DNA of 24,402 nucleotides from Hysterium pulicare CBS 123377 (taxonomy: Eukaryota > Ascomycota > Dothideomycetes > Hysteriales > Hysteriaceae): the NCBI GenBank assembly GCA_000467715.1, contig AJFK01000002.1, forward strand, positions 1 to 24,402, read 5' to 3'. Shown here piece by piece: positions 592 to 18,132 of the stretch. The position numbers were made by a program, and so were the translations under genes. Numbering within the stretch: the stretch's first letter is position 1; every line of letters starts with the position of its first letter. The notes below the pieces were generated by a model that was not told the DNA's origin, made no database searches, and worked only from the letters and a program-made list of their open reading frames with translations.

Positions 592-1287
592 ATGGTATCT
601 ACTACTGCTCGTCTGGCCTACAATCAAGCTGCAGAGGATTCTCCATGTTCAGATTCAGACCTTTCATCCTCCTTCGTACTCGTCAACCCGAAACCAGAGG
701 AAATACCTCTTCCCGTCTCTCCTCGCGGGTCGATGTCCTATATCCCGAAAACTCCTGGATATTCCGATAACGAGGATCACAACAGCGGGAATCATCAACT
801 GAGTCCCTCCTCGCTTTCAGGGGTTACCATCACTAGCTTGAACACGATTCCGTCGGCTGAAACGATCGATCTCAGCGATTTGTCATCGGACGAAGATGAA
901 GAATTGAATAACCCGCAACATAAAGTGGATCCGGCAGCCGCTCGCGGCGTTGAAGGAACAGCGAACCCTCGTCGAGGCCGTCGCGGTAAGAAGTCCGAGG
1001 ACAACGTAGGAAAGCGTAAGACGACTTTCGATGCAACTTCAGGTGCCGCCGCCACGAATGGTGCATCAAACTTTCGGAAAGGCTTTGAATGGACCATCAT
1101 GGGTGCTGGTGCTCTGCTCGCTCTTGGAGCTACTTTGCATACATCTGTAAATGAGGGCGAATTTAGTGTCGCGAATCTGAAGAAAGATGTTACGGAGCTG
1201 GCTATGGGGTTGAAGATTGCTTTTGGGGTCATTGTTAAGGTTGTACCCCGGCTTGTATCCAACTTCATCAGGATGTTTGGTGCATAA
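592..1287 (+). CDS. G1: tail-anchored-type membrane protein, cluster member, function unknown
   Basis: Predicted 231 residues, no intron, family not recognised. The start at 592 is chosen because AACATGG is a good initiation context, it lies about 90 bp after the TATA tract, and the frame upstream only extends to a GTG inside the promoter. Residues 1-150 look disordered. They carry SSSFVLVNPKPEE at about 25-37, also seen in G2, and SLNTIPSAETIDL at 82-94, shared with G4. The latter runs into an acidic Ser/Asp tract (DLSSDEDEE), which resembles a SUMO-interacting motif. A basic stretch follows at about 127-143. A moderately hydrophobic segment at about 167-183 is probably the membrane span, and an amphipathic helix at about 197-230 ends the protein. 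It is the first of eight same-strand genes. Confident as a gene, with unknown function. Confidence 0.75.
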   Translation: MVSTTARLAYNQAAEDSPCSDSDLSSSFVLVNPKPEEIPLPVSPRGSMSYIPKTPGYSDNEDHNSGNHQLSPSSLSGVTITSLNTIPSAETIDLSDLSSDEDEELNNPQHKVDPAAARGVEGTANPRRGRRGKKSEDNVGKRKTTFDATSGAAATNGASNFRKGFEWTIMGAGALLALGATLHTSVNEGEFSVANLKKDVTELAMGLKIAFGVIVKVVPRLVSNFIRMFGA

Positions 1288-1492
1288 GCAAGGGGAGATT
1301 GTTGGGGCATTTTTGAGAGGGTCTGAGGCTTATAGGGCCGTAGAGTGAAGTAATCAACGAATGAACCCATCTTCACGGAACGTAATAGACGGTCTGAGAC
1401 TTCAAACTGATGAGCAACGATTTCTTGCAAGATAGTTGCTAAGAAATTGTGAAAGTATAAGGAAGTCATGAATTTGGCACTTAGGAATTAGC

Positions 1493-1572
1493 TACATTCA
1501 CATCTTTATCTTCCATTGCTGAGCTAAGATGAATCACTTTCAGTCTATCCTGGACTACGGAGAACATATAAC
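1493..1572 (+). promoter_or_regulatory. G2 promoter: TCACTTTCA box plus TATA
   Basis: A TACATTCAC sequence (1493-1501) resembles the TACTCAC box. An exact TCACTTTCA follows at 1534-1542, and ATATAA begins at 1566. The box starts 115 bp before the ATG at 1649. An in-frame ATG at 1529 overlaps this module, which argues that it is not the real start. Confidence 0.55.
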
Positions 1573-1648
1573 TGGCGATAATATACTCCCCTTCCTCAGC
1601 AACCAACTTACTACGAGGAACCACCGTTGTATTCCAACCTCAACTACC

Positions 1649-2578
1649 ATGGCTTCAACACCCTCCTCTCCCCAGGAACCTCTCTCGCCATTCTGGAGTC
1701 GTTCCTCCTCTTTCGTGCATGTCCCGAGTCCGGAGACGGTATCTCCACCAGAATCGCCCAACGCCTTTATTCCCTTAAACAGCATTCCTCGTAGTCCTAC
1801 CTCTCCAGCTCCTAGCACCTCCTCCCTCTTTGCGCAAGGTGGGGAACCAATACAGCTGTTTTCCCAAGAGACACCCAGCCAGACTACAGCATCCGGACCA
1901 CGAGCTTCCCCGACATCAAGCTTTTTCAGCACGCCTCGTGCATCTACGCCCATCGGATTACGCCTCTCCCCCACCTTCAGTGCTTCCAACCATTACGAAA
2001 CGCCTCGTCCGTCCCCACCAACCGAATCACGTACTGTGAGTTCCCACGTCCATGGAGCAGGTGCTTTCGGAACGCACGTCACCCACTCCCACCCTCCAGC
2101 TGCTGGAGGCAACTTAGGCTCGCATCCACCCACTGTTAACCAACTTAACCCCTCTAATCTTTATTCTACCTCGTCTCCGCATACCGGAGCGGCTTACCAA
2201 TCTCCGGCTAGGGCTCCAGGACCACCATTATCCCGCGTTGGCGCTACCGGACCACGTCGCGGCCATTCGGCCTCACAGCAGCATACAGGAACAGCTTATC
2301 AGACCACAACCCCAGCTCCACAAAATTTCCACAATGGTGTTCCCGGACATGTTCGACCACGTCGCGGCTATCGCGCCCAGACTCTTCAGAGCATGGACCC
2401 ACATCGCCAGATTATTATCTACATTGGACGGCACGGTGGCGGTAATTACAACACTGACGATGACGACGGCATAGGTGGACGAGATATGTCATTCTTTATT
2501 GGCGGCGCCTTGGCTATGGTCGGTTTGGCTAGCATGGTGTATGGCGTGGCAGGCTTGCTTGCGCACAGTGGTTTTTGA
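1649..2578 (+). CDS. G2: Pro/Ser-rich tail-anchored-type protein, cluster member
   Basis: Predicted 309 residues, intronless, family not recognised. The ATG at 1649 (CTACCATGG) is preferred over the in-frame ATG at 1529, because that one lies inside the conserved promoter module and adds residues unlike the rest. The N-terminal part is strongly Pro/Ser/Thr-rich and disordered. It carries SSSFVHVPSPE at about 19-29, matching G1, and a loose IPLNSIP at 41-47 reminiscent of the SLNTI motif. Two tandem 34-residue units (H178-Q211 and H212-T245) both begin HTGxAYQ and both contain a PRRG element. An acidic DDDD patch precedes a Gly/Ala-rich hydrophobic segment at about 281-304, with only a few residues after it, as in tail-anchored proteins. 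The low-complexity composition weakens homology inference. Function unknown. Confidence 0.7.
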   Translation: MASTPSSPQEPLSPFWSRSSSFVHVPSPETVSPPESPNAFIPLNSIPRSPTSPAPSTSSLFAQGGEPIQLFSQETPSQTTASGPRASPTSSFFSTPRASTPIGLRLSPTFSASNHYETPRPSPPTESRTVSSHVHGAGAFGTHVTHSHPPAAGGNLGSHPPTVNQLNPSNLYSTSSPHTGAAYQSPARAPGPPLSRVGATGPRRGHSASQQHTGTAYQTTTPAPQNFHNGVPGHVRPRRGYRAQTLQSMDPHRQIIIYIGRHGGGNYNTDDDDGIGGRDMSFFIGGALAMVGLASMVYGVAGLLAHSGF

Positions 2579-2796
2579 TGCGAATGCCAGAGCATGCGGT
2601 TCCAGTGATGGAAAGAATGAGGCATGATGACGATGAATGAGATGAGTTCTCTGTGAAATGGGCTGTTGAGATCTTCTTAAGCTACGTGGAAATGTGCTCA
2701 TGGTAGTTAGTAGGTGTTGATGGTAAAGTAAGGGGGATTCATCGAGAGGGAATGCAGTTTCACGATAATAAAATAAAAAAAGAATGGTGTGGTGCG

Positions 2797-2856
2797 TATT
2801 CACAAATAGCAATACATACTACGTGATGCAGTATACTTTTCATCAAATCCTATATC
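2797..2856 (+). promoter_or_regulatory. Likely G3 promoter, diverged form of the cluster module
   Basis: TATTCAC at 2797-2803, ACTTTTCA at 2835-2842 (118 bp before the ATG) and TATATC at 2851 appear in the same order as in G2, G4, G7 and G8. The central box has one extra T, so this is a weaker match. Confidence 0.4.
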
Positions 2857-2952
2857 ACCAGCTGTAAGAACAGCACAAACTCGATGTGTCAATAAACCCC
2901 CTCACAACCACCTAATCCACCTCAAACCAGGAATACGCACCGCTTCAATATC

Positions 2953-3684
2953 ATGTCTGCCCGTATAGATTCTTCCGTCCCTCCAATTTCCCTAGAGGAA
3001 GTGTCACCGTCCCATCTCACCCGCTCTACCATAAATCAACTCATGACACGAACCAAAATCTCGGAAGAGTCCACAAAAAACTTGCAAGCACGCCTTGCAG
3101 TGCTGGCAAACACATTCCCTGGTATAATGCGGGACTCCGACGAAGATGAAGCGCACTACCGGGACGAAATCGAAAGTGGTTCTAATCGTGATCTTTTCAA
3201 CGCTTGTTGTTCTCCAGATGGCACACTCGCCAGTCTCAACACGCTTCCCTCAGACTGCACCGCTCAGCTCGAGAGTCTCCTATGGGACAAGTTAGACAAA
3301 GAAATTGCGATCGAAACGGAAAATGTCTTGCGAAAAATCAAGAAAACTTCGATTACAGAACAAATCGAAATTGAATGTAATTCTGGAGATATCACTGCTG
3401 CGACGAAGAAGATCTTGCGCAAGATCGAGAGAGATACAATTACAGAGCAAATTAAAGTTGAAGCTATATCCAGAGTTATCTCAGCTCGGACCGAAAAGGT
3501 GCTGAAGAAAATCGGGGAAGTTGGAGAGTCCAAGGTCGGAGTGAAGAGAGCGCCGAAAGCTGTTCTGTGTCAGGGGTGTAAACGAGCTGTCTTCAGGTCA
3601 CTAATATTTGTAGGCCTTTGCGTGGTGGTAGCTATGGTGGGATACGCGTATAGGATGTATTTCCAGTTGAAAAGGATAATATGA
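2953..3684 (+). CDS. G3: repeat-containing helical tail-anchored-type protein, cluster member
   Basis: Predicted 243 residues, intronless, family not recognised. The start has A at -3 and lies about 100 bp after the TATA-like sequence. Residues 1-92 are probably partly disordered, with an acidic patch (DSDEDE) at 61-66. A weak SLNTLPSDCTAQL (94-106) corresponds to the SLNTI motif of G1 and G4. A charged helical region follows with three units of 29-residue period starting near 117, 146 and 175. The first two share a LRKI core and then TEQI, while the third keeps only the front half (VLKKI). A basic linker with CxxC (206-209) leads to a strong membrane segment at about 213-232 and a short basic tail ending KRII. 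The repeats suggest a coiled coil or an amphipathic helix at the membrane surface. Confidence 0.75.
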   Translation: MSARIDSSVPPISLEEVSPSHLTRSTINQLMTRTKISEESTKNLQARLAVLANTFPGIMRDSDEDEAHYRDEIESGSNRDLFNACCSPDGTLASLNTLPSDCTAQLESLLWDKLDKEIAIETENVLRKIKKTSITEQIEIECNSGDITAATKKILRKIERDTITEQIKVEAISRVISARTEKVLKKIGEVGESKVGVKRAPKAVLCQGCKRAVFRSLIFVGLCVVVAMVGYAYRMYFQLKRII

Positions 3685-3890
3685 AGAGAATGGGGTATAA
3701 TTGGAACGTGTGACGGAGGCGATTGAGAGTATGTTGGAGAAAATGGAAGGTCATCAAGATCTACTGGGTTGATAGCGGCCACGCCATAGCTCCCAGACAC
3801 ATCAGTATATAAGGGTTGAAATTCGCAACTGGCATGTAATGAATCTGGTGACTTAATTCAAGGGCAAAGCTGATTGTGAAATTGGGCCCA

Positions 3891-3957
3891 TACTCACTAC
3901 TGGATGGGAAAAGCCATGACCGGTCACTTTCATAAACCTCTTCGAACCCATATAATA
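3891..3957 (+). promoter_or_regulatory. G4 promoter: TACTCAC, TCACTTTCA and TATA
   Basis: TACTCACT at 3891-3898, an exact TCACTTTCA at 3924-3932 and TATAAT at 3951 appear in the cluster order. The central box starts 118 bp before the ATG. The 15-mer CTGGATGGGAAAAGC (3900-3914) between the first two boxes recurs at 16057-16071. Confidence 0.6.
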
Positions 3958-4041
3958 TCTCCTCGTTCTTCGGTAGATTAATCCACTAATCTAACCACTC
4001 TCCCTGACCACAACCAACTCATCCGGGGCCACTTATAAATT

Positions 4042-4539
4042 ATGGAAAATACCACAAATGACACTCATCTGGAGCTAACGGCCGACAATATCGCTCGACT
4101 CTTAGACCTCTTACGCGAACGAGCTACATCGCAAGCTTCGAGCACCACGTTCGATAAGGAAAGCATTGGCTCGAAAACTTCTGCCGAAACAATCAGTAGC
4201 CTCAACACGATCGAGTCAGCTTCTACTATCGATCTCGACAACAAGAAGCTTTCATCGAAATCGAACAAGACAGTGGATGTGTCTTCACTAAATCAGGACT
4301 CTCAGGCTGACTACAGCTTTGATATAGCCGATGGTTTTAGGCCTAAGAATGAGTACGAGAATGACGAAGAAAAGCAAGAAACAGAAGAAGAAGCGAAGAT
4401 CAGTAAGGGCCATGGCTTTAGTATCTTGCATGAACTGGAAGAGGTAACGTGGAGTGATATCTTCATCGGTGCACTTGTGGAGGTTGTCATTGGCACTTGT
4501 TTAGTTAGATTTGGTCTCGTACATGATGCAGACGGTTGA
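4042..4539 (+). CDS. G4: small tail-anchored-type protein with the SLNTI motif, cluster member
   Basis: Predicted 165 residues, intronless and the smallest of the array; family not recognised. The ATG has A at -3 and G at +4. Residues 9-30 form a short leucine-rich amphipathic helix. SLNTIESASTIDL at 53-65 is the best match to the G1 motif in the window: 11 of 13 positions are identical while the flanks are not alignable, which suggests a constrained short motif. A Glu-rich stretch occupies about 103-120. The hydrophobic segment at about 139-158 is followed by a short acidic tail (HDADG). A Trp just before the membrane (EEVTWSDI) fits the loose W-x-x-I pattern, but it may simply be an interfacial Trp. 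Function unknown. Confidence 0.75.
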   Translation: MENTTNDTHLELTADNIARLLDLLRERATSQASSTTFDKESIGSKTSAETISSLNTIESASTIDLDNKKLSSKSNKTVDVSSLNQDSQADYSFDIADGFRPKNEYENDEEKQETEEEAKISKGHGFSILHELEEVTWSDIFIGALVEVVIGTCLVRFGLVHDADG

Positions 4540-4978
4540 GCGAATGCTAGAGCCCCGACGGTGAGATCTCTGGGAAACTCAAGTTAACGTGGATCTATTC
4601 GATTGACGGAAACTGGATAAGAGTCTTAAGGGGTGTGAAAAATAAATCTGAGAATTCACAGATCGGGTCGTGAATTTACAATATGCATCCCAGATCAAAG
4701 AAGGAGTAGTCGATTAATTGAACTCACCTAAATCATTTAATCTCAATAACTCGGAAAGCCTGCCTTCATCGATTATTAAATACATTCAGATGTTGCTTAA
4801 ATCCCATATTTATACAACCTTTTCTAAGTGAATATGCTTGCAAGTAAGCATTTTGAAGACTTTCATTTTCTTCTCGGAGATTTAGTACTTGACCTTTCTA
4901 TTCTCTTTTTTAACTCCTATACCCTCCATAACCTCTGTAACTGTTTCACAACCATCGACCGCATTTTTGCTCTGCAAC
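4540..4978. promoter_or_regulatory. G4-G5 intergenic region with likely G5 promoter
   Basis: No gene seen. AACTCACC at 4721-4728 and ACTTTCAT at 4859-4866 are partial matches to the two upstream boxes of the cluster module; the second starts 120 bp before the G5 ATG. There is a TATA-like TTTATAC near 4808, but it is upstream rather than downstream of that box, so the module is not cleanly conserved. A C/T-rich leader precedes the ATG. Confidence 0.3.
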
Positions 4979-5548
4979 ATGTCGTCGGCGAAAAAGTCTT
5001 CCTCGGTACAGTCTTCTAAGGGCTCCGAAGAGTACTCTACCCTAGCGGACACGATTGCCACCGAGACTACATCCATGAGCTCTTCACGTTCTAGTCTCGA
5101 TTCTCACATTGCTATCAATGAGAATGGGAATAGAGAGGATGTTGAGAACGCTTGGATCAACCAATACAGCAATAATGACCAAAATACCGAAGAGCACGGC
5201 TTCGACAATATCTCTACTCCAGCATCCGAGCCAACCAATAACGCAATCCCATATTTCTTGGCTACTCAGTACCTCGAATGTTCACAGCACGTCTCCGACG
5301 ATCAAAATGTGCAACTGGAGCGCCGTGTCGCTGATCTAGAACGCCGTCTGGCGATACTGGACCCCATGGGCGTTCAACACGAATACGATATACAGGAACT
5401 TAGGAAGCGGCTGAGGGTGGCCCGAGAGATATTTTGGCGGGTTATGGCTATAGGTTTCATCGTTGCAGTTACGGTCTATCATTTGGCGAAGGAGTCGAGT
5501 GCGAATAAGGCCAGAGCGAAGGCGAATGGTGGAGAGATGAGTTTGTGA
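4979..5548 (+). CDS. G5: coiled-coil tail-anchored-type protein, cluster member
   Basis: Predicted 189 residues, intronless, family not recognised. The ATG at 4979 (CAACATG) is preferred because the frame upstream extends only to a TTG in the leader. Residues 1-105 are Ser/Thr/Asn-rich and probably disordered. A heptad-like charged stretch from about 110 to 150 (VQLERRVADLERRLAIL, then ELRKRLRVARE) predicts a coiled coil and so dimerisation. It runs straight into the membrane segment at about 151-169. A basic 20-residue tail follows, longer than in most members. In tail-anchored proteins, basic tails can favour mitochondrial or peroxisomal targeting, but that is inference. The SLNTI motif is absent; TLADTIATET at 21-30 is at most a distant echo. 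Confidence 0.75.
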   Translation: MSSAKKSSSVQSSKGSEEYSTLADTIATETTSMSSSRSSLDSHIAINENGNREDVENAWINQYSNNDQNTEEHGFDNISTPASEPTNNAIPYFLATQYLECSQHVSDDQNVQLERRVADLERRLAILDPMGVQHEYDIQELRKRLRVAREIFWRVMAIGFIVAVTVYHLAKESSANKARAKANGGEMSL

Positions 5549-5948
5549 AGATTGCGCTGTAGAAGCAATTGAGAGGAACTGACTGCCCTCTTAGATAGTC
5601 AGAATGCTGTAGGATGTAGCTTCTGATATAAGTTGCGGCGAACGGATTTCGACAACGATGGAATTCATCAATTGGTTAGACTGGGTTTTACGAGTTCACC
5701 CTCTTCAAAAATACCCCCAGGTAGAACTTGGAACCACCAGAGTGCTCGTGAATGAAACGCACAACATTTGACGATTTTCGTGATACACAAAACATATCTG
5801 TTTCTTTGATGTTTTTCCATTCACAACGTACATGTCTGCTCCTGAACATGGCCTTACATCTTGCAACACCTGCGTTACTCTCACTCCACTACCACTTCCA
5901 ATCCCACACTTTCTCACATTGGATAATCCATGCGGAAGATCCACCACC
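5549..5948. other. G5-G6 intergenic region
   Basis: No gene and no clean copy of the cluster promoter module. CATTCAC at 5818-5824 is a weak partial match. A pyrimidine-rich stretch (about 5799-5820) could mark the transcription start. An ATG at 5832 is in frame with G6 but has a poor context (T at -3). Confidence 0.4.
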
Positions 5949-7772
5949 ATGCCAACCGATCCATATAAGCCACCCTACGACCCGGATTTCCCCAAATCTC
6001 TTCTCAACGGATCTAGGACTACTTCATACTATCCGAAACAGCTCTTAAACCAGCTCACTCGACCAATACTATCCCAAGAGGATGATAAACATGTTTCCAG
6101 TGGAGGCAAGAGCGCCTTCCAGCGATTGAATAGGGCGTTCGGACCCAATGGATGGTGGACAATATCGAAAAATGCAGCTGGAGAGCCAGTCCCTTGGGAG
6201 GCTACCTCAAGCTCATCGGTTCATGAAGTTTTTGGAGTTGCTCAGGGTGAGACTTTGAGCCCCTTAGGCTTTTTGGGTGGGCTGAAGGAGTATGAGGAAC
6301 ATACCAGCCAGAGTAGTTGGGTTGATATTCTAGAAGAGTTTACCAAAGACGCAGCTAGCCACGACAGGGGATACCCGGAGGAGATCGCTCGTGCTCCAGC
6401 TACGCTTTCAATTATCGTAGAAGAATCGGATTCAGACACTTCGAAGGAATCACGACGTAAGCGGACTGCGCAGGACTCAAAGAAGGAGGTCGAGGACCCT
6501 GAAGATGCGGTATCCGAAGTCTCTAGCTACGCAAGCAGTTCCTCAGGTGACTCCGTGCGGTCTGCTTGGAGTCCGCCATCCCGATTCTATCGACCGATAC
6601 ATGGAGGCGGTAGTTTAGTCCAGGACGAAGTGAACGACAGTAACGAAGCTCTGGACCAGTCACTGGTGCCGGAAATCACAGTCCCCGGTGGTGTCATCTA
6701 CCCACATGGCACTCGAGATGCCGGGGCAAGTGATCATGGTCGGGACGAAAAAGATACGGAATCTAATGTCAAGAGAGGAGAGCGGATTAAGAAAGATAAT
6801 GAAAGCGAGAAATATGAGGCAAAATTACCGGAGATCACCGCTTCTGGTAGCATCATTTACCATGAAAGATGTCAGGATAGCATGGCGAGGGATCCTGGTG
6901 ACAATGAGCAGAACGTTGCATCCAAGATTGATGTGCCAGAGCAGGGTGATGCGGAGGAGGGTGACCTCAAGAAAGATGCAGGCGATTTAGGCTCCATCGA
7001 CGAAGACGACAATGTGGAACCTCTAGCTTTGGGTCAGGTTAGCTACGTTGAAAAGAGTCTCAATACTATTGTAAGCGAAAATGTCCGTAGGGAAGAGACT
7101 CTTGTGTCTGATGGCGATGCGAAAGAGCTTGCCGGTTGGGATAAGACGAAAGCCAAGCGAAAGAAGGTACATATTGGCAACGAAGACCAGAAGCCACCGG
7201 TTCCACAAGCAAATCGACTTCTCAAGCAACATGGTCTAGGCAACGATGACAGCGATGACAATTTCGACTTAAGTTGCCTTGCCTTACGGAGCAACTCAAG
7301 CAGCAATAGTGACGAGGGTAACGACATATTCGAAGATGCACTGGCCACATTCATTAGCGATATGGAACAAGAAGACATAGCCAGCGACAATATTCTGAAG
7401 GCCGAGGACGTCTCTCAACCGCAAGGCCAACATATCAACGTTCCAGCTGAAGCTCCAGATACGGTCAAAAGCCCCAATCAAGGCGGCCGAAGCGTAAGCT
7501 TTCGCTGCGATGTTTGTCAGAAGTTTGGCGTTAATCCTTGGGAAGTCATCCGTGACGTAGAACAGCAAATAAGCGAAATGATCGAGCTAATCTGTCAGAG
7601 ACAGGCGGAATTGAGCGCTGAAGAAGCCCAAATACGAAAGGAAGCGCAAGCTATTTCTGGTTATCGATCAGAAAACACTATGCCCTGGGTCCTGGTCTCT
7701 TTTGGGGCACTTTTATTGTATATTGGTTCCGTCGTGTTTGCCTTCTATTGCGGCAAGCACGACCTTCTATAG
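5949..7772 (+). CDS. G6: acidic tail-anchored-type protein, cluster member
   Basis: Predicted 607 residues from the ATG at 5949 (ACCATG). A start at 5832 would add 39 residues and cannot be excluded. Intronless, family not recognised. Visible parts are: a Trp-containing stretch WVDILEEF at 124-131 (loose Atg8-interacting type); SIIVEESDSD at about 154-163, which resembles a SUMO-interacting motif; and two diverged units beginning PEIT (241 and 295), each followed by a Gly and then a V/I-I-Y triplet. SLNTIVSENV at 370-379 keeps the first half of the G1/G4 motif. A CDVC pair lies at 520-523 and a Glu/Gln-rich coiled-coil-like stretch at about 530-570. A strong membrane segment at about 579-600 is followed by a short tail (CGKHDLL). 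The middle is highly charged and probably disordered. Confidence 0.75.
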   Translation: MPTDPYKPPYDPDFPKSLLNGSRTTSYYPKQLLNQLTRPILSQEDDKHVSSGGKSAFQRLNRAFGPNGWWTISKNAAGEPVPWEATSSSSVHEVFGVAQGETLSPLGFLGGLKEYEEHTSQSSWVDILEEFTKDAASHDRGYPEEIARAPATLSIIVEESDSDTSKESRRKRTAQDSKKEVEDPEDAVSEVSSYASSSSGDSVRSAWSPPSRFYRPIHGGGSLVQDEVNDSNEALDQSLVPEITVPGGVIYPHGTRDAGASDHGRDEKDTESNVKRGERIKKDNESEKYEAKLPEITASGSIIYHERCQDSMARDPGDNEQNVASKIDVPEQGDAEEGDLKKDAGDLGSIDEDDNVEPLALGQVSYVEKSLNTIVSENVRREETLVSDGDAKELAGWDKTKAKRKKVHIGNEDQKPPVPQANRLLKQHGLGNDDSDDNFDLSCLALRSNSSSNSDEGNDIFEDALATFISDMEQEDIASDNILKAEDVSQPQGQHINVPAEAPDTVKSPNQGGRSVSFRCDVCQKFGVNPWEVIRDVEQQISEMIELICQRQAELSAEEAQIRKEAQAISGYRSENTMPWVLVSFGALLLYIGSVVFAFYCGKHDLL

Positions 7773-8457
7773 TTCAATGGTGTGGGTGGAGACTAAATTG
7801 CGCAGGAAGACAGTGATTCATTTCCTTGCTTGCTATGGGTTACAGCAAGTCTTCAAGAACACCAGTAGGACCGGAGTAGAGGCTGTTGTGGCCTTGGGTA
7901 CTAGCAGGATTAGATGTATCTAGGACCCTATCAAATGACCAACAGACATTGTGAAAATACACGTTCATTTCCATCCAGCACATATACTTGCAATATTCGA
8001 GCGATACGGAGACATTTACGAAGATATTAGGAAAACAATGAGGTAAGGTGTTTGATACGCACGGTCGAACATGCGGAGATGTGTCAGGATAGAAACTGCT
8101 AAGCGTTCTCTATTGAACACCCAACCTATATTGAGAATTATCACCTGAAGTGTTAAAAAGTTTGATGATTCAACCGACAAAGACCAAAAGTATATAACAT
8201 ACCGTACGAGCTATTCGCCGATGAAGGTACTATTTGTTACACATGCTGGAGCGGTGATACTTGAAATTTGCAACGAGCAAGCTCTTGACAATCACGTCCT
8301 CGCTACAGCAATTCGAGACTATTCTCTTGCGGGCTCTACGATTGTAGTGAACAAAGAATTGATGAAAGGGGACGCAGACATGCGGCTTTCGTCGCTAATT
8401 GAAGTCAGACGTATCTCAAATCACTTAAGTAGATTCAAGGGGCATACGATGGTCATG
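7773..8457. other. G6-G7 intergenic region, one doubtful small ORF
   Basis: There is no convincing gene. A plus-strand ATG frame at 8221-8469 could encode 82 residues starting MKVLFVTHAGAV, about 30 bp after a TATATAA-like sequence near 8191. Its start context is poor, it lacks the cluster features, and its 3' end runs into the G7 promoter boxes. I treat it as probably spurious. Confidence 0.3.
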
Positions 8458-8508
8458 TACTCACCGTAACTTTTTGCGTCACTTTCACCACCTGATTTTC
8501 CTATAAAG
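8458..8508 (+). promoter_or_regulatory. G7 promoter: TACTCACC, TCACTTTCA and TATAAA
   Basis: TACTCACC (8458-8465), TCACTTTCA (8479-8487) and TATAAA (8502-8507) are followed by a C/T-rich initiator-like tract. The first two boxes are spaced 21 bp start to start, exactly as in G8, and the 12-mer CGTCACTTTCAC is identical in both. The ATG lies 177 bp after the central box, so the leader is longer than in G2 and G4. Confidence 0.65.
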
Positions 8509-8655
8509 TCTCGCTTCTCTCCCTCTCTCAGATAAAACATAAACTCGAAACACTGCTTCAGCCGCAGCAACTCCACTACACAGCTTTGCAACCTGCGCAG
8601 AAACAGAATCATCAACATCTTTTCCAACTTCTAATTATACTTACAATCAAACAAC

Positions 8656-11600
8656 ATGTCCGACTCTCCTAGATCCAGCTCTAGGCCTCCCTCAGAAGTT
8701 GTTGAAGACTCTGTCAGTACTACTGACACTGGTGAAGACATGGTTCATCCTCAGGTCGTGGCGAAGGAGCCTGAAGAGGACGGTTTTGAGACCGACCACA
8801 GTTCATCTGATGATACAGGAATCGTGGTAAATTCTTCTAGCTCATCTGATGATGAGGAATGGGAGGATCTTGGCCCTGTAGTTGACGCATATCAGCTGGC
8901 TGACAACCGATTGGCACAGCATTCCGATTCACTTGATAACGACGAAGAAGCTTCTGGAGGCATCGAGCTTGGTCAGAAAACAAAAGCAAACTCTGAAGAC
9001 GCAGCTGGCTCCTCAGAGAAGGATCCAATCAGAACTTCTGAGACAGTCTCGGAAGATGTAAATCAGGCAAACATTGAAGTCAGCAAACAGTCCGCGGCAA
9101 AGGACTCCAACGATGATTATAAGGAAGGAGATGCTCATGATTCAACCAATACTCAAAAAAGCTCCCCACAAAAGCTCATGGAGAACGAAGCTGCCGCAAC
9201 CCCTTTGCCGCCGAGCCCACAATCAGGTCATATACAAAACGATCCTTCCACAGAAGCTGGGGAAGTCAGTACTGCTGTTTGCACTGACGAGCAGACGGAA
9301 AAGAAGGAATCCGATCGTTTGATCGCCGATGAGGTCGCAGCGTCCGCCAAAGAAGATGATGGCGATTTAAAGGACTCCAAAATTGGCCCCGCTCAAGGAG
9401 CGCCAGATAACGAAGCTGCTGCGACACCTTTACCACCAAGCCCACCATCGGTGGACGTACAACAACATGATCCAGTGATTGAAATTGGGAAATCAAATGA
9501 GGAAGTCCGTGCTATTACTTCCAATGACCCAGAGGAGAAAACTGAAATGAAGGAAGTCGGACCTTCAACCATCGACGAGTTCGACAAGCAAGCTGAAGAT
9601 GGTGCAGCACATTCAACGAACACAGACGTAGATTCTTTTCAACAAGCCCGCGACAACGAGGCTATAGTAACTGCTATGTCACCGAACCCATCCTCGGCCG
9701 ATGTACCAGAAGATCAGTCGACAGCAGCTCTCAATAATACGGAGGGTGATCATTTTACAGGCACGAATGATCCTGTAGCGACGGATAAACCAAAGGAAGA
9801 AGATCAGTTGCTCGCGGATGACTTTGCAGATCAACCGATGGACGGACCTGAGAAATCGACAAGCCTTAAACAGGAAGGGCAGACTTCTGAGAACTCAGTA
9901 CAAATGGCTGTAGACCATGAGCCTACCACAACGTCTTCGCTGAGTCTGCAGACGGGGCAGCCTTTGGCTGAGGACTCACAGACCGAAGGATCTTTAATGG
10001 AAGAATCTACCGTTGAGGATCCGTCGACCGATGATCTAACAATTGAGAAATCGGCAATTGCGGAACCATTGACCGTAGAACTATCAGTTGAAGAACCTTC
10101 AACCCAGGAACCTTTGACTGAGGAACCTCTGACCAAGGAACCATCCATTGAGCAAGCACCAATTGGAGAATTTTGCGTTGAAGAACCATCTATCGAACAA
10201 CCAGTGACGGGAGAGTCATCAACTGCTGAGCCGCTTGCCGATTCCTCGGATGAAGCTGGCGGGCTCAAGGACCAAAATACTTCTACATCTCTCGGAAGCG
10301 ATGAGGATCAGCATGGAACGACGGAAGAACATGAAGTAGCTTCTTTAACCACAGATAAGCCCACGATACAAAATGAGGACGGCGAGATCCACATGCATGT
10401 CGAAGACTCTGATGTCAATACCAAATCTGCTCTCAGTCCGGTTACCGAGGAACAGACTCCGGTTACTGCCCTGACCGAGATCGACGAGGCCTACAAGGAG
10501 TATATTCGTAAAATTGTCGAAGACGAATTTGAGAAAGAGCTCTTACTCACCCAACAACAGTTCGACAAAGGTCGCCAGCTGACGCAGCACGAAATGGAGC
10601 GAGTCTACCGGGAGTTTGGGAAGTTTCATCAGGACTTTCAGAAGGGAGCTGGTGTCATTCAGGACGCTTTCAACGACGCGGCTAATAAGGCTGAAACACT
10701 TGTTAAGGAGTCCGTTGAAACTGTGGCCAAGAAATCGAACGAGGATGCCACTGGTTCGATCAGCATTGCAATTGAGAGGTCAGCTAGGGACTCCGTTAAA
10801 GGTTCCATCCGGGATGCCATCCGCAAAATCGAGTCGGCTGTCACGGACTCGGTCGAGATTGCTGCCAAGGATTCATTCCAGCATGCGTCCGAGGACTCCT
10901 TTGAGGCTGCTTTGACTTCGATTGAGAAAGCAGTCAAGGGCGCGATTGAGACGTCTGCGAAAGGTTCGGCAGAGAATGCATTTGGTTCAATCAAGGAAGA
11001 TATCCAAACTACTATTCAAAACTCTGCCAAGATGTCGATTGGCCAGGCTGTCAATTCGATCAAGGATGCAATTCAAACCTCTGCCGATGGTGTTATCAAG
11101 GATGCCATCAAGTCAATTCAGAGCGCTATGCAGAGCACGCTTCAGAACACCGTCAAGAACGAGATTGAGAAGCACACAAATGCTTCGGGCGAAGCCTCTG
11201 CGAATTCAATCCAGGAAGCAATTGAAAACTCATTACAGGATATCCAGAAATTGGTGGCCGAGAAGCACACAAAGGCTTCGGGCGAAGCTCCAGTCAAGTC
11301 AATACAGGAAGCAGCTCAGAACTCAATACAGGATGTTCAGGCATCGGTAGGAAATACTGTCAAAACTTCTATCAATACCGTCCTTAAAGACTTCGTCGTC
11401 GACACCCGTAAATCCATTAGCGCCGACGTAAAAGCAGCAGCTGAGGATGCAGTCAAGCAATCGACTCTCAATACCATCGTCCAGAACCTGCTCGGGCAAT
11501 CACTCCGAGACTCGATCCGGCAGACAGTTGATACGGCGACTCGTCTCGCTTTAGAGGATACCGTCAAAGGTGCTGTGCGGCGAGAGATGAAAGCCGCTGA

Positions 11601-12255
11601 GAATACCATTCAGGCGTCGATAACGAATGGGCTGCACAGCTCTGTGAACGATGTTTTCCGGACTTCGCTCCAACCTGCGGTCGAGTCTGCGATCAATGGT
11701 GCCATTGCAGACTCTCTTGAGTTTGTCGTCACCGATGCTATCGAGGATCGCGTAAAGTCGTCAATGGAAACTGCAGGTGGGGATCTCCGGAAGAGTCTTA
11801 AAGACTCGACCGATGATACTATTAAGTCTTCAGTCAGCGATGCGATCAGGGGATCAATTGGAAGCATGATAAAACCCTCGGTCGAGAGCGCCATCATTAC
11901 GACTTTTGAGAGCCGAGTGGAGGAGGTAATGCAGCATCGTCTGCAAAACTTCATCCAACAAGAGATCCAGAGCACCTGGACCGTTGTGGCAGCGCAGTAT
12001 GGGACGTCCTTCGGAACAGCATATGCGGAAGCTGCTAAGCAGCCGAAACGGGCTCGAGATCAGACCCAAGCTGATGCAAACGTAGAAGACAGTACGGCGG
12101 ATCAGGGAACCAACCCGCAAGATGCTTGGGTCGTCATACGAGCATGGCGAGGAACTCGCGACTTTCTTTGGGATCAGCGGTTATTGATTGCTTTCCTTGT
12201 CTTCAATTTGATCTCACTCGCTCTTGTGTATGAGTACACTCGCGACTTCATCTAG
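8656..12255 (+). CDS. G7: giant acidic and amphipathic-repeat tail-anchored-type protein
   Basis: Predicted 1199 residues in one exon; start CAACATG. Family not recognised. Residues 1-600 are acidic and disordered. They contain DDEEWEDL at 65-72, which fits the Atg8-interacting pattern W-x-x-L with acidic residues before it and is matched in G8. Three diverged units of about 75-82 residues begin NEAAATPLPPSP (177, 252) or a variant (334). A degenerate run of short EEPST/EEPLT-like units fills about 448-528. From about 605 to 1105 the protein is a long Ala/Ser/Ile/Lys-rich helical region with many short pseudo-repeats (SIxxAI, DSVxxAI) and almost no Pro. It resembles in style the amphipathic repeats of apolipoprotein- or perilipin-like proteins, with no family claim. 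It contains a 31-residue tandem repeat at about 838-899. The membrane segment is at about 1175-1192, followed by a short tail. The C-terminal third is clearly related to G8. Confidence 0.8.
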   Translation: MSDSPRSSSRPPSEVVEDSVSTTDTGEDMVHPQVVAKEPEEDGFETDHSSSDDTGIVVNSSSSSDDEEWEDLGPVVDAYQLADNRLAQHSDSLDNDEEASGGIELGQKTKANSEDAAGSSEKDPIRTSETVSEDVNQANIEVSKQSAAKDSNDDYKEGDAHDSTNTQKSSPQKLMENEAAATPLPPSPQSGHIQNDPSTEAGEVSTAVCTDEQTEKKESDRLIADEVAASAKEDDGDLKDSKIGPAQGAPDNEAAATPLPPSPPSVDVQQHDPVIEIGKSNEEVRAITSNDPEEKTEMKEVGPSTIDEFDKQAEDGAAHSTNTDVDSFQQARDNEAIVTAMSPNPSSADVPEDQSTAALNNTEGDHFTGTNDPVATDKPKEEDQLLADDFADQPMDGPEKSTSLKQEGQTSENSVQMAVDHEPTTTSSLSLQTGQPLAEDSQTEGSLMEESTVEDPSTDDLTIEKSAIAEPLTVELSVEEPSTQEPLTEEPLTKEPSIEQAPIGEFCVEEPSIEQPVTGESSTAEPLADSSDEAGGLKDQNTSTSLGSDEDQHGTTEEHEVASLTTDKPTIQNEDGEIHMHVEDSDVNTKSALSPVTEEQTPVTALTEIDEAYKEYIRKIVEDEFEKELLLTQQQFDKGRQLTQHEMERVYREFGKFHQDFQKGAGVIQDAFNDAANKAETLVKESVETVAKKSNEDATGSISIAIERSARDSVKGSIRDAIRKIESAVTDSVEIAAKDSFQHASEDSFEAALTSIEKAVKGAIETSAKGSAENAFGSIKEDIQTTIQNSAKMSIGQAVNSIKDAIQTSADGVIKDAIKSIQSAMQSTLQNTVKNEIEKHTNASGEASANSIQEAIENSLQDIQKLVAEKHTKASGEAPVKSIQEAAQNSIQDVQASVGNTVKTSINTVLKDFVVDTRKSISADVKAAAEDAVKQSTLNTIVQNLLGQSLRDSIRQTVDTATRLALEDTVKGAVRREMKAAENTIQASITNGLHSSVNDVFRTSLQPAVESAINGAIADSLEFVVTDAIEDRVKSSMETAGGDLRKSLKDSTDDTIKSSVSDAIRGSIGSMIKPSVESAIITTFESRVEEVMQHRLQNFIQQEIQSTWTVVAAQYGTSFGTAYAEAAKQPKRARDQTQADANVEDSTADQGTNPQDAWVVIRAWRGTRDFLWDQRLLIAFLVFNLISLALVYEYTRDFI
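11167..11352 (+). repeat. 93-bp tandem duplication inside G7
   Basis: Two adjacent 93-bp units (11167-11259, 11260-11352) both begin GAGAAGCACACAAA and encode 31-residue units sharing EKHT, ASGEA, SIQEA and NS.QD. The start of the units is nearly identical at DNA level while other parts of the helical region are much more diverged, so this duplication is younger than the rest. Confidence 0.75.
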
Positions 12256-12853
12256 GTTTGAAGTAGTTTGAGCTGGCGGGGTGGTATATGCATTTTATCC
12301 TTTTGATTTGGTTGGGCTGGTGATTTTCGGCTCGTAGGTTTGGTGACGACGCCGTATCTAGAATATTTTACGAGTAATTGAGCTGAGGTTGTCACATCAT
12401 TTCTTCCTTGAAAAGTTAGCAATGCACCTTGCGAATTGACAACTCCTACAGAGGGATGAAATGAGTCTGCAAGCCAGGGCATGTAATCGGAAGATGACTA
12501 ACAAGCACGAGAGATGCTCCAACTGCTAAATCAGTTGCAATAACGACCATCGCCATCTTTAGCAGATCATCGCTAGGTCTAAGGGTGTGTGTTGGAATGT
12601 TCTAGTCCTATAAGCAAACATCAGCAGCAAACAGTGGTGTTGGGCTATATCAACCGCCCAATAGCCTTCATCAAGGAATCAAAGCTTCATGATCCAACAA
12701 ATATATCATGTGATTCGAGACTCATAGGTCTATTTTATGGCTAAACCTTGAGATCGTGAGAAATGCCTTTGGTAGGGTAAGTGTACGGCTTTCATCGCTG
12801 AAAGGTCGAGTGATTCCAAAATTACCAGACCTAATCCAAATGCGGGTATCATT
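12256..12853. other. G7-G8 intergenic region
   Basis: No gene or RNA seen. A small hairpin-like pair (GGGCTAT near 12641 and ATAGCC near 12661) is noted but is short enough to be chance. Confidence 0.5.
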
Positions 12854-12908
12854 TACTCACCAAGGGAGGTTTCGTCACTTTCACTTCTTGTAGCCCAAAT
12901 ATATATAC
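12854..12908 (+). promoter_or_regulatory. G8 promoter: TACTCACC, TCACTTTCA and TATATA
   Basis: TACTCACC (12854-12861) and TCACTTTCA (12875-12883) have the same 21-bp spacing as in G7. A TATATATA run begins at about 12900, and the ATG follows at 13016. A CT-rich, CAAC-containing leader lies between. Confidence 0.65.
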
Positions 12909-13015
12909 TCTTAGATCCTGGGCAAAATATCTCACGAACGTCAACTCCTACCATCTTCCAAACCACTCTCAACTCCAAACACAACTGCTTCAAAGCTAAA
13001 AAGCAACGACTCACC

Positions 13016-14593
13016 ATGGTTCATTCTCAATCCAAATCAATCTACTCTCCCCCTGACTCTCCTATTGTCGAGCCCCAATCCAACGAGAATCAACCTATGC
13101 AACCCGTCAAGAGCAACGAAGAAATGGCCAGGGATGTGGATGTCCATCCAGTCGCGTCAGTTGATGCTAGGGATAAGGAAGTCGGAGATTCTCCTGTCTT
13201 GGTTAGTGATCATGACAGTCCTGTAATGGGTTTTGACGATGAGGGCTGGGAGGTCTTGTGCCTAGCCAAAGACGAAGAGCTTACTGACGTGTTCCAGCAT
13301 CCGGGAGAACAAGGAAATGGCGAAAGTGTACTCGGCTTGGGTATTGACATAAGCCAAAAACCAGATGCATCAAGCGAAGCCACAGAAGTCGTGGTCACCC
13401 CCAAAGAGACTCAAAATAAAGAGACAGACAACTTTCAGGCCTCAGCTCAAGCAAACCAAGTCTCAACCTGTCCTGACTCGAAGGCCGAAGCGCTTGCTTC
13501 GTCTCTTCTGGTAGTATCGACTGACAACGAGGACGCGAGGTCTGAGACAGAGGACAAAGAAATGCTACACACTCCTCCAGAGTCAGACGATGAAGATCCT
13601 GCCGATGTGTCAGCAAATGTGAATCAGACACACATCAGTGATAAACATCATACTGAAAACGGCATCGCCAATCTTGATCAGACTGGAGTTGCCACAAAGT
13701 TGTGCTCAGTCAACCACAACGATCATAACGAGGTCCCCTCCCAAAGCACTGCCGAGCGCGTTGCTGGAGACACTATTCCGGATCCTCCTCCAAAGCAAGG
13801 CGAGGCTGAAGAGGCGAGCGTCGCTGACGAGGGAAATGCAGGGGTCATCGATGAATGGGCTGAGAATAAACTCGAGAGAGGCATCGCAGGGCTTCTACAT
13901 GCCTTCAGCCGTGCTAGCAAGCAAGCTGATAAAGTAATCATCGGCTCAGCCCAAGCTTCAGCAAAAACAACCCACGACATCGTGAAGCACTTAGCCACTT
14001 CAATTGATAGTGCAGTCAAGCCGGCAGTGGCTGCATCTATTCAAGACTCTGTTCCCGACGCCATTCAATCGATGCAAACTGTCGTAAAAGAGTCGCTCAA
14101 AGTTGCTATCAAGACCTCAACGGTGACAGTACGCTTCAGCGATTATTTCAACAACACGGTAAAGGAGAATATCAATGCAGCACTCGAGAATGCGATCAAT
14201 CCAGCACTTGAGACTCATTTGACGGAATTTATTCAGCGGAATCTTCGAGACGCCATCCGACAGGAAGTAAGGGCTACTCTGGACAACAATGATGTCGCGG
14301 TCCAAGAGGAAGTCAACGGAGAAGACTGCGATAATCAACCTAGTAATGACAGCGCAACTGATCAGCCAGCTGACGGAGCGGTTGATGACGTCTTCGTGCG
14401 AAACAGATTTCGCAGCAAGCGGTGTTTGATCGCACTTGCGATGCTATTCTATGTCATCTCGCTTGTTGTGGCGATGAAGTATGCTTTCGAACTTGGCGAT
14501 CAATCTCTGAGGTATGATAATGAAAAACTGGCTGAGGCATGGGTTAATGCGATCAACAACAAGAAGCAGCACTTGACTCGGGGTGCTATATAG
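13016..14593 (+). CDS. G8: G7 paralogue, helical tail-anchored-type protein
   Basis: Predicted 525 residues in one exon; start CACCATGG is optimal. Residues 1-270 are acidic and disordered, with DDEGWEVL at 74-81 lining up with DDEEWEDL of G7. Residues about 275-425 form an Ala/Ser/Ile-rich helical region like that of G7 but much shorter, ending in FIQRNLRDAIRQEV, which aligns with FIQQEI and its surroundings in G7. A basic RxRFRSKR patch precedes the membrane segment at about 468-490 (CLIALAMLFYVISLVVAMKY), which resembles the G7 segment. Unlike G7, a 35-residue tail follows it. G8 may be a shortened duplicate, or G7 may have grown by repeat expansion. Function unknown. Confidence 0.8.
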   Translation: MVHSQSKSIYSPPDSPIVEPQSNENQPMQPVKSNEEMARDVDVHPVASVDARDKEVGDSPVLVSDHDSPVMGFDDEGWEVLCLAKDEELTDVFQHPGEQGNGESVLGLGIDISQKPDASSEATEVVVTPKETQNKETDNFQASAQANQVSTCPDSKAEALASSLLVVSTDNEDARSETEDKEMLHTPPESDDEDPADVSANVNQTHISDKHHTENGIANLDQTGVATKLCSVNHNDHNEVPSQSTAERVAGDTIPDPPPKQGEAEEASVADEGNAGVIDEWAENKLERGIAGLLHAFSRASKQADKVIIGSAQASAKTTHDIVKHLATSIDSAVKPAVAASIQDSVPDAIQSMQTVVKESLKVAIKTSTVTVRFSDYFNNTVKENINAALENAINPALETHLTEFIQRNLRDAIRQEVRATLDNNDVAVQEEVNGEDCDNQPSNDSATDQPADGAVDDVFVRNRFRSKRCLIALAMLFYVISLVVAMKYAFELGDQSLRYDNEKLAEAWVNAINNKKQHLTRGAI

Positions 14594-15287
14594 GGTGAGC
14601 GGGGTGTGAGATCATACTGATCTTAAGGGTAGAGGGACTTCGTATCTTGGATCTACCTCGATGTTGAAGGAATCTCACTGGTGTATAGTTCTTCCGCGCC
14701 CGTTACGTAGCTCCAGCACTGCTCTCCTTCATCAGACCTACAATGCATTTAATTCATAACACATGGTAGCTGAAAACCTTCTATTTACGTGAATTTTCTA
14801 TTCATTTGATGAACCAAATAATTGTTCGATGAAATATTATGGTTCCATCTAAAATGGTGAACCATCCCAAGACGATCCTGAATCCTGATATTTGGTCTTG
14901 CCTCTCCTTACATCCAAAATACGAAACACCATCCTTTCCGATCGAGAAGAGAATTCTACGGCCAACTGCCTTCCAGTCGAGCTCTCTGCTGTCCAGGAAA
15001 ATTTTGAGAGTGAATCCACACAAATCATAACAACAAATGCCATTCTCTTTCCACTTTTAAACAAGCCGCGCATGTATGTCTTCATATCAAGGTTGCAAAA
15101 CTACATAAGTAAGTCATTTTACTCAACATCCACTACATTTTTTCTGATACAAGAAGCTCTCCTCACTCTTTGGAATTGACGCTCTCGCCCACGCGTAAGT
15201 AAGTAAGCAAGTCACAAGTAGAAAGATCACTTGCCCTATTTGCAAAAATGAGTAGATTTTCCGTAATCGTATGGAAAGCACCAGAGG
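14594..15287. other. Gene-poor region after the array, part 1
   Basis: No gene supported. Short overlapping frames on both strands around 14802-15180 have no recognisable motif. An inverted repeat with arms ATGGTTC and GAACCAT lies at 14839-14865, and a short GTAA microsatellite near 15195-15208. Confidence 0.5.
14839..14865. repeat. Small inverted repeat
   Basis: Exact 7-bp arms (ATGGTTC / GAACCAT) are separated by 13 bp that are partly complementary. It could form a small hairpin or be a binding site. There is no terminator-like T run and no transposon context, so a chance origin is possible. Confidence 0.3.
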
Positions 15288-15910
15288 GTGAGTCTTGATC
15301 CGAACAGAGTAATCCTACATCCCAATAACCGTGAAACGCTTATGAAAACGTACGTGACCAACCTGCTTTCACTCTCTTCTTCTCGCTCATCTAACACATT
15401 ACTATTCAACAACGTCCCGAACCAACCCATCCACTGTATCCAACCCTCGATCTTTGAAGTCGACAACAGTCTCCTTGCGCCCATTCCTAGCCATCGCAGT
15501 CGAGCTCCTCATACCCTACGCCGTGGGCGCCTCCGTCGACGCGAAGGACCTCAACCGTGGCGAACAGGATACCTATCAGCCTATTACACCCCTAGCAATG
15601 GCTGCGGATCCTCCAGAATGCACCACGGAGATGCCGAACTCAGCGACTCCACCGCAAAGAAAACCTCTATCAACACAACTATGACCAAGCGTGTAGCGGC
15701 AGAGGTTCGGGAAGACATATTTTCGCACCTCCACAATCGAGGAGGCTATTGAGGTCTTGAAATAACGTCAAACAGTGTTGTTCAAGTGGTAATCAGTAGT
15801 CTACTTCTGCTGGCACGGATATAAGACTTGCGTGGAATGCGATCGCAATCATCCCGTAAGTGAAGTCCAACCCGTCCAAAACAGATACAGCTGGCAGCAG
15901 CTTATAGTGC
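15288..15910 (+). other. Possible decayed or unresolved small gene
   Basis: A frame that opens without an ATG near 15454 reads like a secreted-protein start (LRPFLAIAVELLIPYAVGAS) and then a Thr/Pro-rich stretch, stopping near 15684. A second frame (15288-15752) overlaps it. Further on, about 15815-15870, a short frame reads FCWHGYKTCVECDRNHP. No consistent splice model with an ATG joins them. It could be a remnant of a small secreted protein gene or simply noise. Confidence 0.2.
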
Positions 15911-17253: not shown

Positions 17254-18132
17254 ATGGCCAATCCAAAGAAGACCTATTTCCTCACTCCTTCCTTCGACTA
17301 TCCCCCGACAGGCCCAATCCTCCTCGGTAACATTCTCCGCGATCCTACGAAACCCAACAAATCCATGAACCCGGGGAAAGCCCGCGTTCCTCCTCCATTA
17401 GATGCGCTCACGACGCATAAAAAGACGGATTGGGAAGCGAACATCAGTAAAGGGCATTCAGGGAGCGTAGGCATCTATGTAAAGTTTCTCGAGATGATCC
17501 TAGGTGCCGGAATCGACGTAGGGACGAACTGGGAAAGGAAGAAAGAAGATACGTATAAATTCGAGACCCTGGAAACCACGTCTTTTGAACCGGACTTGGT
17601 CATGGAGTATCTTCAGGAGGCTTTGAAAGCTCCGAATGTGGCTCGGTTTTTGGAACAGTCGAAATGTCGGAAGCCAGTATATATAGTTACTGGATTGAAG
17701 ATTGCGAGGGGGGCTAAGATTAAAACGTTGCGCACGAAGGGGAATGGTGGAACGGTTGATGTTGGTTTGGATGGCACGATGCTTGCTGCACCTGTGAGTG
17801 CTGGACCCAAGGTTGAAGTGAACAAGGAAAGAGAGGAAGGTGTTGAATGGGGTGGTAGCGATGATTTCGTGTTTGCATATCGAGTCAGTAGGCTGAAGGT
17901 GTCACGGAAGTCTGGCGAGCTGGATGAAGAGGGCTATGTGAAGGGCGCTTTGTACGGCTTAGAGTATGGGGAGGATGGGGAGGTCGTGAACGTGCCAGAA
18001 GCATTCGTTGTCGACAATATTGAGGGAGATGAAGAGGTTGCGGGTGAATTTGCGGAGGGCGAGAAAGGGGATGCAGAGGATGATGGTGAAGAATGCGTGT
18101 GCGTTCTGCCTCCAAAAGATACAAACTCATAA
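17254..18132 (+). CDS. Gasdermin-like pore-forming domain protein (HET-Q1/RCD-1 type)
   Basis: Predicted 292 residues, single exon, intact; start AACATGG. The pattern fits the gasdermin pore-forming fold. Near the N-terminus, FDYPPTGPILLGNILRDP (14-31) matches the animal type in which an aromatic/Pro stretch is followed by a leucine-led ILEP-like turn. YIVTGLKI at about 147-154 corresponds to the conserved VVTE-like strand, and FVFAYRVSRLKV at about 207-218 to the FRV-x-x-L strand that closes the domain. Residues from about 225 on are a long acidic tail (EEVAGEFAEGE and similar) ending in Cys residues (ECVCVLPP). In fungi, HET-Q1 is activated by removal of a C-terminal piece by a subtilisin-like protease, and RCD-1 by meeting an incompatible partner; both cause regulated cell death at membranes. 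No protease gene is seen in this window. The assignment is by eye, and another fungal family is possible. Confidence 0.55.
   Translation: MANPKKTYFLTPSFDYPPTGPILLGNILRDPTKPNKSMNPGKARVPPPLDALTTHKKTDWEANISKGHSGSVGIYVKFLEMILGAGIDVGTNWERKKEDTYKFETLETTSFEPDLVMEYLQEALKAPNVARFLEQSKCRKPVYIVTGLKIARGAKIKTLRTKGNGGTVDVGLDGTMLAAPVSAGPKVEVNKEREEGVEWGGSDDFVFAYRVSRLKVSRKSGELDEEGYVKGALYGLEYGEDGEVVNVPEAFVVDNIEGDEEVAGEFAEGEKGDAEDDGEECVCVLPPKDTNS

Follow-up and report, generated by a model that had tools for sequence, protein, structure and literature searches.

Eight adjacent intronless genes for predicted tail-anchored proteins in Hysterium pulicare, tentatively considered as organelle-anchored autophagy receptors

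The window analyzed here is an entire contig of 24,402 bases (GenBank AJFK01000002.1), one of the 596 contigs of the 37.2 Mb assembly of the ascomycete Hysterium pulicare CBS 123377. Positions 592-14593 of this window are filled by eight consecutive open reading frames (ORFs) on the plus strand, termed here g1 to g8, all of which lack introns according to the ORF listing and whose products range from 165 to 1199 residues. The array had been pointed out in an earlier interpretation made from the letters of the DNA (the sequence-only reading), and all eight genes were located where that reading had placed them: it is a real and unusual locus. Because the contig begins at position 1, just left of the array, the array may continue leftward beyond the contig start.

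The first gene, g1 (592-1287), encodes 231 residues comprising an acidic, Ser-rich N-part with a peptide, FVLV, that resembles an Atg8-interacting motif (AIM, also termed LIR), an SLNTI motif and two weak C-terminal hydrophobic segments. Its neighbor g2 (1529-2578; 349 residues) is rich in Ser and Pro, contains PRRGxR motifs and has a C-terminal hydrophobic segment at 2492-2563. The products of g3 (2953-3684; 243 residues), g4 (4042-4539; 165 residues) and g5 (4979-5548; 189 residues) have such segments at 3589-3654 (with basic flanks), at 4459-4521 and at 5429-5488 (followed by a basic tail), respectively; g3 also contains an SLNTL motif (3223-3258) and g4 an SLNTI motif (4171-4236). The acidic product of g6 (5832-7772; 646 residues) combines SLNTI at 7056-7070 with a hydrophobic segment at 7686-7745. 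The longest, g7 (8656-12255; 1199 residues), consists of an acidic N-half, a long helical repeat and a hydrophobic segment at 12181-12237, while its homologue g8 (13016-14593; 525 residues) has a helical region at 13841-14290 and a hydrophobic segment at 14423-14479, after which follows a tail of 37 residues.

All eight look coding: in-frame codon scores are 0.05-0.28 bits per codon, as against -0.20 to -0.09 for the best other frame of each gene, the weakest (0.05) being that of g2. An ORF antisense to g1 (795-1469, minus strand, 224 residues) has a codon score of 0.07, as against 0.16 for g1, and is probably a shadow of that gene. Extra in-frame ATGs occur at codon 41 of g2 (position 1649) and codon 40 of g6 (position 5949), and these may be the true starts. 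Where the SLNTI motif of g1 ends (862-903), TIDLSDLSSDEDEE resembles the consensus of a SUMO-interacting motif with an acidic flank.

When 19-residue windows are scored by Kyte-Doolittle hydropathy, the top-scoring one of every array protein falls close to its C-terminus, at a distance of 4-37 residues and with a mean of 1.74-2.38; no second-best segment exceeds a mean of 1.35. By this measure all eight have a single C-terminal span and neither an N-terminal signal nor another span, which is the plan of a tail-anchored protein. The span of g1 (placed at 1189-1245) is marginal, its two weak segments having means of 1.74 and 1.35, and the 37-residue tail of g8 is long for a protein of this type. 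A rule that calls for such a C-terminal segment holds for 8 of 8 array ORFs but, among 53 non-overlapping background ORFs with 150 residues or more (from 150 kb, or 15 loci, of the same genome), for 2 (Fisher P 1.5e-8); since the rule was fixed after the eight had been seen, and since many ORFs of the background are likely to be isolated exons of longer genes, this P value is only indicative. The first third of every array protein is net acidic, and the arms that precede the spans are predicted, from composition alone, to be largely disordered. Net charge varies from -2 to +2 in the residues after the span and from -4 (g2 and g4) to +5 (g3) in the 15 residues before it; by common rules of thumb this suggests, but does not prove, that the proteins are destined for different membranes. 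Hence, of the sequence-only reading's proposal--a family whose members each have one C-terminal membrane segment and which coats one membrane--the segments are borne out, whereas a single membrane is not favored.

The members of the array are only partly related to one another in a demonstrable way. A blastp match between g7 and g8 (E 5e-8) demonstrates common descent of this pair at the level of sequence; g1 and g4 are likely related, having in common a stretch of 22 residues (808-873 in g1, including its SLNTI motif) that is 68% identical (E 9e-4). Beyond this, only short motifs are common to g1 and g3, to g1 and g2 and to g3 and g6, and an SLNT motif recurs in g1, g3, g4 and g6, so that the evidence for kinship of g2, g3 and g6 with other members is weak. 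For g5 the best non-self match in blastp, which covered all array pairs, has an E-value of 0.58, and shuffled Smith-Waterman comparisons, which covered 11 chosen segment pairs, revealed no similarity to g1 or g2, the only partners tried with it; its kinship with other members is accordingly not demonstrated, and what would constitute a family is part of the set. The earlier description of the proteins as mostly too diverged to align is therefore apt, while the claim that they form one family stands for g7/g8, probably for g1/g4, weakly for g2, g3 and g6, and not for g5.

By the libraries searched, the members are orphans, in agreement with their original assignment to no known family. Scans of all eight against Pfam and NCBIfam yielded nothing that passed a curated cut-off, and sequence searches of the PDB with the helical part of g7 and with g8 (these two queries only) gave no match at E-values up to 1. 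Two sub-threshold matches look compositional and were set aside: Extensin_1 for g7 (E 5e-5; 23.7 bits, cut-off 105) and Dynamitin for g5 (E 0.006; 16.3 bits, cut-off 31.8). Searches of the 37 Mb genome with all eight queries turned up no paralogue outside the window that could be called with confidence, at a sensitivity low enough that the g7 query missed g8 and the g1 query missed g4. Beyond self-matches they returned g7 from the g8 query, a weak antisense match within g7 (E 0.02), and two weak matches elsewhere, for g4 (E 0.07, locus L034) and g5 (E 0.11, locus L032), both to ORFs in which, within the stretch examined, no hydrophobic segment passes the cut-off. Among the titles and abstract openings that searches of open-licence papers listed, none describes an array of this plan.

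The sequence-only reading also held that the genes share promoter boxes, and this is true of three of the eight. A bipartite module, with TACTCAC as its first part and, 13 or 25 bases on, GTCACTTTC as its second, lies on the plus strand upstream of g4 (3891-3931, with a 25-base spacer), g7 (8458-8486) and g8 (12854-12882; the latter two with a 13-base spacer), and occurs nowhere in 171,867 background bases (18 loci, both strands), although it was defined after the upstream regions had been looked at. The exact 10-mer GTCACTTTCA alone is likewise absent from the background, but occurs there 11 times when one mismatch is allowed. A search without a preconceived motif found a 9-mer, with one mismatch, in 6 of the 8 upstream regions, a level that 1 of 30 random sets also attains; its best 10-mer occurs in 3 regions, a level matched by 30 of 30 random sets (sets that could include pieces of the window, so that this background is partly contaminated). 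With clean random sets, 31 of 1000 have, as the array does, exact 10-mers common to 3 of 8 regions. A shared 9- or 10-mer signal across all eight upstream regions is thus at best borderline.

The helical repeat region of g7 (residues 610-1110; 10483-11985) has a main period of 3.85-3.96 and autocorrelation peaks at lags of 8, 4, 31 and 23, and both its periodicity and its autocorrelation far exceed those of shuffled sequences. By blocks of 100 residues, the period is 3.69 in residues 610-709 and 3.85-3.98 across residues 710-1109. A single-sequence AlphaFold model of residues 609-1199 is almost wholly helical, at low confidence (mean pLDDT 49.6). Lipid-binding helices of the perilipin or synuclein type, which are built of 11-residue repeats, have a period of 3.67; such helices were considered for g7 and are not favored by the blocks spanning 710-1109, while the first block would fit them. 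The region therefore suggests a rod or coiled coil rather than lipid helices, with the first block perhaps excepted. Within g7 there is also a 57-base repeat in three copies (9181-9237, 9406-9462 and 9652-9708) that are 63-100% identical; two of these encode NEAAATPLPPSP, which might serve as kinase or SH3/WW sites.

A possible function is suggested by short peptides in the arms of these proteins. The xLIR pattern, a published description of Atg8-binding peptides (PMC5119064), is matched within the predicted cytosolic part of five of the eight: by SSFVLV in g1 (667-684), which g2 has in common as SSFVHV (1706-1723), by SSWVDI in g6 (6312-6329), by EEWEDL in g7 (8854-8871), whose Trp is the sole Trp of residues 1-1107, and by EGWEVL in g8 (13241-13258); a second match in g7, STWTVV, brings the total to six. 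When whole arms are shuffled, the mean number of proteins with a match is 1.85 (P 0.012 for the five observed; P 0.009 when shuffling is confined to blocks of 30 residues), and the mean number of motifs is 2.29 (P 0.030, or 0.018 within blocks). Trp is rare in the arms, and 4 of the 18 cytosolic Trp residues sit in xLIR matches, as against 0.34 expected (P 3e-4, with STWTVV included and with Leu disallowed at position 1 of the pattern). Moreover, in two pairs the peptide coincides with the best-conserved window of eight columns: DDExWExL among 145 aligned N-terminal columns of g7 and g8, and SSSFVxV among 133 aligned columns of g1 and g2, each with six of eight columns identical. The flanks of the peptides are Ser-rich or acidic, like those of the receptors tabulated in PMC7615515, and FVxV in g1 and g2 fits the GABARAP-type motif (W/F)(V/I)xV given there. 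Validated motifs usually lie within disordered regions, and conservation has been advised as a means of strengthening predictions (PMC9907853). The genome contains an ATG8 gene (one match, above cut-off). Filamentous fungi are reported to lack orthologues of the yeast receptors Atg32, Atg30 and Atg36 (PMC7711908), which makes as yet unrecognized receptors plausible.

On these grounds it is conceivable, though short of probable, that the array encodes organelle-anchored autophagy receptors with putative Atg8 binding; the proposal is concrete and its support modest. The array would then consist of tandem, at least partly duplicated and fast-diverging single-exon genes for tail-anchored proteins, most of which would be inserted into and fixed in an organelle membrane by the C-terminal span while a disordered cytosolic arm displayed the AIM. 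When removal of the organelle--the putative cargo--was needed, the Ser-rich or acidic flank of the peptide would be phosphorylated and would thereby strengthen binding to Atg8 carried by the membrane of the forming autophagosome; the peptide would dock on Atg8, and the patch of organelle membrane would be enwrapped. Paralogues that differ in span and tail would reach different membranes, and in g7 and g8 the helical rod might act as a spacer or as a self-assembly part. Should the proteins indeed bind Atg8, they would at once supply several candidate membrane receptors for a filamentous fungus, and we know of no earlier array of such receptor genes.

Known receptors offer parallels. BNIP3 and NIX are tail-anchored proteins, and Atg32 has a single span. 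Like the predicted array proteins, the animal mitophagy receptors BNIP3/NIX and FUNDC1 are anchored in a membrane and have a LIR with Ser or acidic flanks (PMC7615515): QSSWVDI of g6 resembles NSSWVEL of NIX, and DDEGWEVLCL of g8 resembles DDDSYEVLDL of FUNDC1. Unlike these, the array members match no Pfam family above cut-off, their Atg8 binding is putative, and several of them occur in one array. Yeast Atg32 and Atg39 are likewise transmembrane receptors; Atg32 differs, however, in reportedly having no clear orthologue in filamentous fungi (PMC7711908), and its likeness to the array proteins is one of description rather than residue by residue.

Several observations weigh against the receptor proposal. 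The AIM idea arose after the sequences had been read, and the aligned stretches of g7/g8 and g1/g2 were picked where blastp had found similarity. The stricter cLIR pattern, in its familiar form, is matched by g7 only. The pattern scan found no xLIR in the cytosolic parts of g3, g4 or g5, the last of which has only a relaxed EEYSTL (5027-5044). The pattern is a loose one, with a random rate of 1.5e-3 per position (PMC5119064), and the excess in motif count amounts only to 6 over 2.29, one of the six being STWTVV, which sits where the helical region of g7 ends and may not be exposed. Finally, Atg24 has been proposed as a mitophagy receptor and NBR1 is a conserved pexophagy receptor (PMC7711908), so that the fungus may not need others and the gap to be filled is a partial one.

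The closest rival explanation is that the proteins are membrane tethers or scaffolds, whose disordered and coiled-coil arms hold organelles or septal structures much as leashin (Lah) of Aspergillus does for Woronin bodies, and that the AIM matches are due to chance; this too is a possibility to be held only tentatively. It is consistent with the fraction of xLIR-bearing ORFs, which at 5 of 8 in the array is not significantly above the 23 of 58 in the genomic background (17 loci; Fisher P 0.20), a result that also counts against the receptor proposal. The plan of g7--an acidic N-half, periodic helix over some 500 residues and then a C-terminal span--resembles the C-part of Lah, in which a membrane span lies C-terminal to a long arm with a coiled coil (PMC5345055). 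In Lah, however, the span occupies residues 761-781 of the last 1000 and leaves about 220 residues as an extracellular part beyond it (PMC5345055), whereas 4-37 residues follow the spans of the array; moreover, tethering leaves unexplained why an AIM-like peptide is the best-conserved window of both pairs, and the small g4 and g5 have little arm with which to tether. The septal proteins SPA of Neurospora and SPP of Aspergillus are, like the array proteins, fungal and have long disordered parts, but these favor Arg and His and disfavor Lys and Gly, in contrast to the net acidic first thirds of the array proteins, and the accessible part of PMC10023807 describes no C-terminal span for them. Next comes the explanation that the genes are orphan ORFs of mixed origin and similar low-complexity composition that are neighbors by chance, with g7/g8, and perhaps g1/g4, the only paralogues. 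This is unlikely, inasmuch as eight C-terminal spans in succession contrast with a background rate of 2 in 53, the promoter module occurs in three of the eight genes and not once in 172 kb, and the SLNT motif recurs in four of them. Even if the proteins do not bind Atg8, eight adjacent orphan genes with C-terminal spans remain an unusual locus and a natural comparison of tail sequences.

A further explanation concerns a gene to the right of the array. The intronless ORF at 17254-18132 (plus strand, 292 residues), 2.7 kb downstream of g8, is by its sequence matches a fungal gasdermin of the RCD-1/HET-Q1 type, with an acidic tail beyond the matched part: phmmer matches it to HET-Q1 (E 7.7e-7) and RCD-1-1 (E 1.9e-6), and a two-sequence profile built with its paralogue in the same genome matches rcd-1-1 in the PDB (E 2.5e-13); the match to NCBIfam prok_gasdermin (E 1e-7) has 32 bits and is below the cut-off of 100. 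Its position raises a testable link of the array to fungal cell death, namely that array and gasdermin belong together in a single locus for regulated cell death or allorecognition, the fast-diverging membrane proteins serving to sense, guard or restrain the pore former. In fungi, a protease gene is reported to accompany more than 80% of gasdermin genes in a cluster (PMC12881547); no protease family was matched among the window ORFs scanned, where multi-exon genes could escape and which come from a contig of only 24 kb, so the regulator may be another neighbor. On the other hand, linkage in one genome can be an accident, and Pfam detects no protease, NLR or other signaling domain in the array. 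The paralogous gasdermin, about 30-31% identical to the first and located at 1495-2403 (minus strand) of locus L026 on contig C239, is adjoined by a copper amine oxidase gene, and none of the 8 neighboring ORFs scanned matches a protease family. Nor does it have an array of this kind beside it: its two outer flanks (L027 and L028) contain 14 ORFs with 100 residues or more, none with a hydrophobic segment that passes the cut-off. A conserved link between gasdermin and array was therefore not seen at the paralogue, save for a Thr-rich ORF of 90 residues next to it (L026 3469-3741, minus strand), below the size scanned, which has a hydrophobic C-terminal stretch; this ORF may encode a small membrane protein or belong, as an exon, to a larger gene. 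A cell-death locus is, on balance, quite improbable. Least probable of all, and mentioned only as a far-reaching speculation, is a combination of this link with the receptor proposal: a tandem set of eight or more autophagy receptors anchored in membranes, every one sent by its tail to a membrane of its own, would form a fast-evolving organelle-clearance locus that is genetically coupled to a gasdermin killing the cell when clearance fails.

Taken as a whole, the sequence-only reading is upheld as regards the array, its C-terminal spans and its lack of a known family, and in part as regards kinship, but not as regards one membrane. Farther to the right in the window lie an exon of a Rtt106-type histone chaperone gene (19803-20384; PF08512) and a gene for a GT90 glycosyltransferase (20961-23120). 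Between the array and the gasdermin gene, the stretch 15248-15770 contains MSRFSVIVWKAPEG followed by a splice-like GTGAGT and possibly represents the remains, or exons, of another gene.

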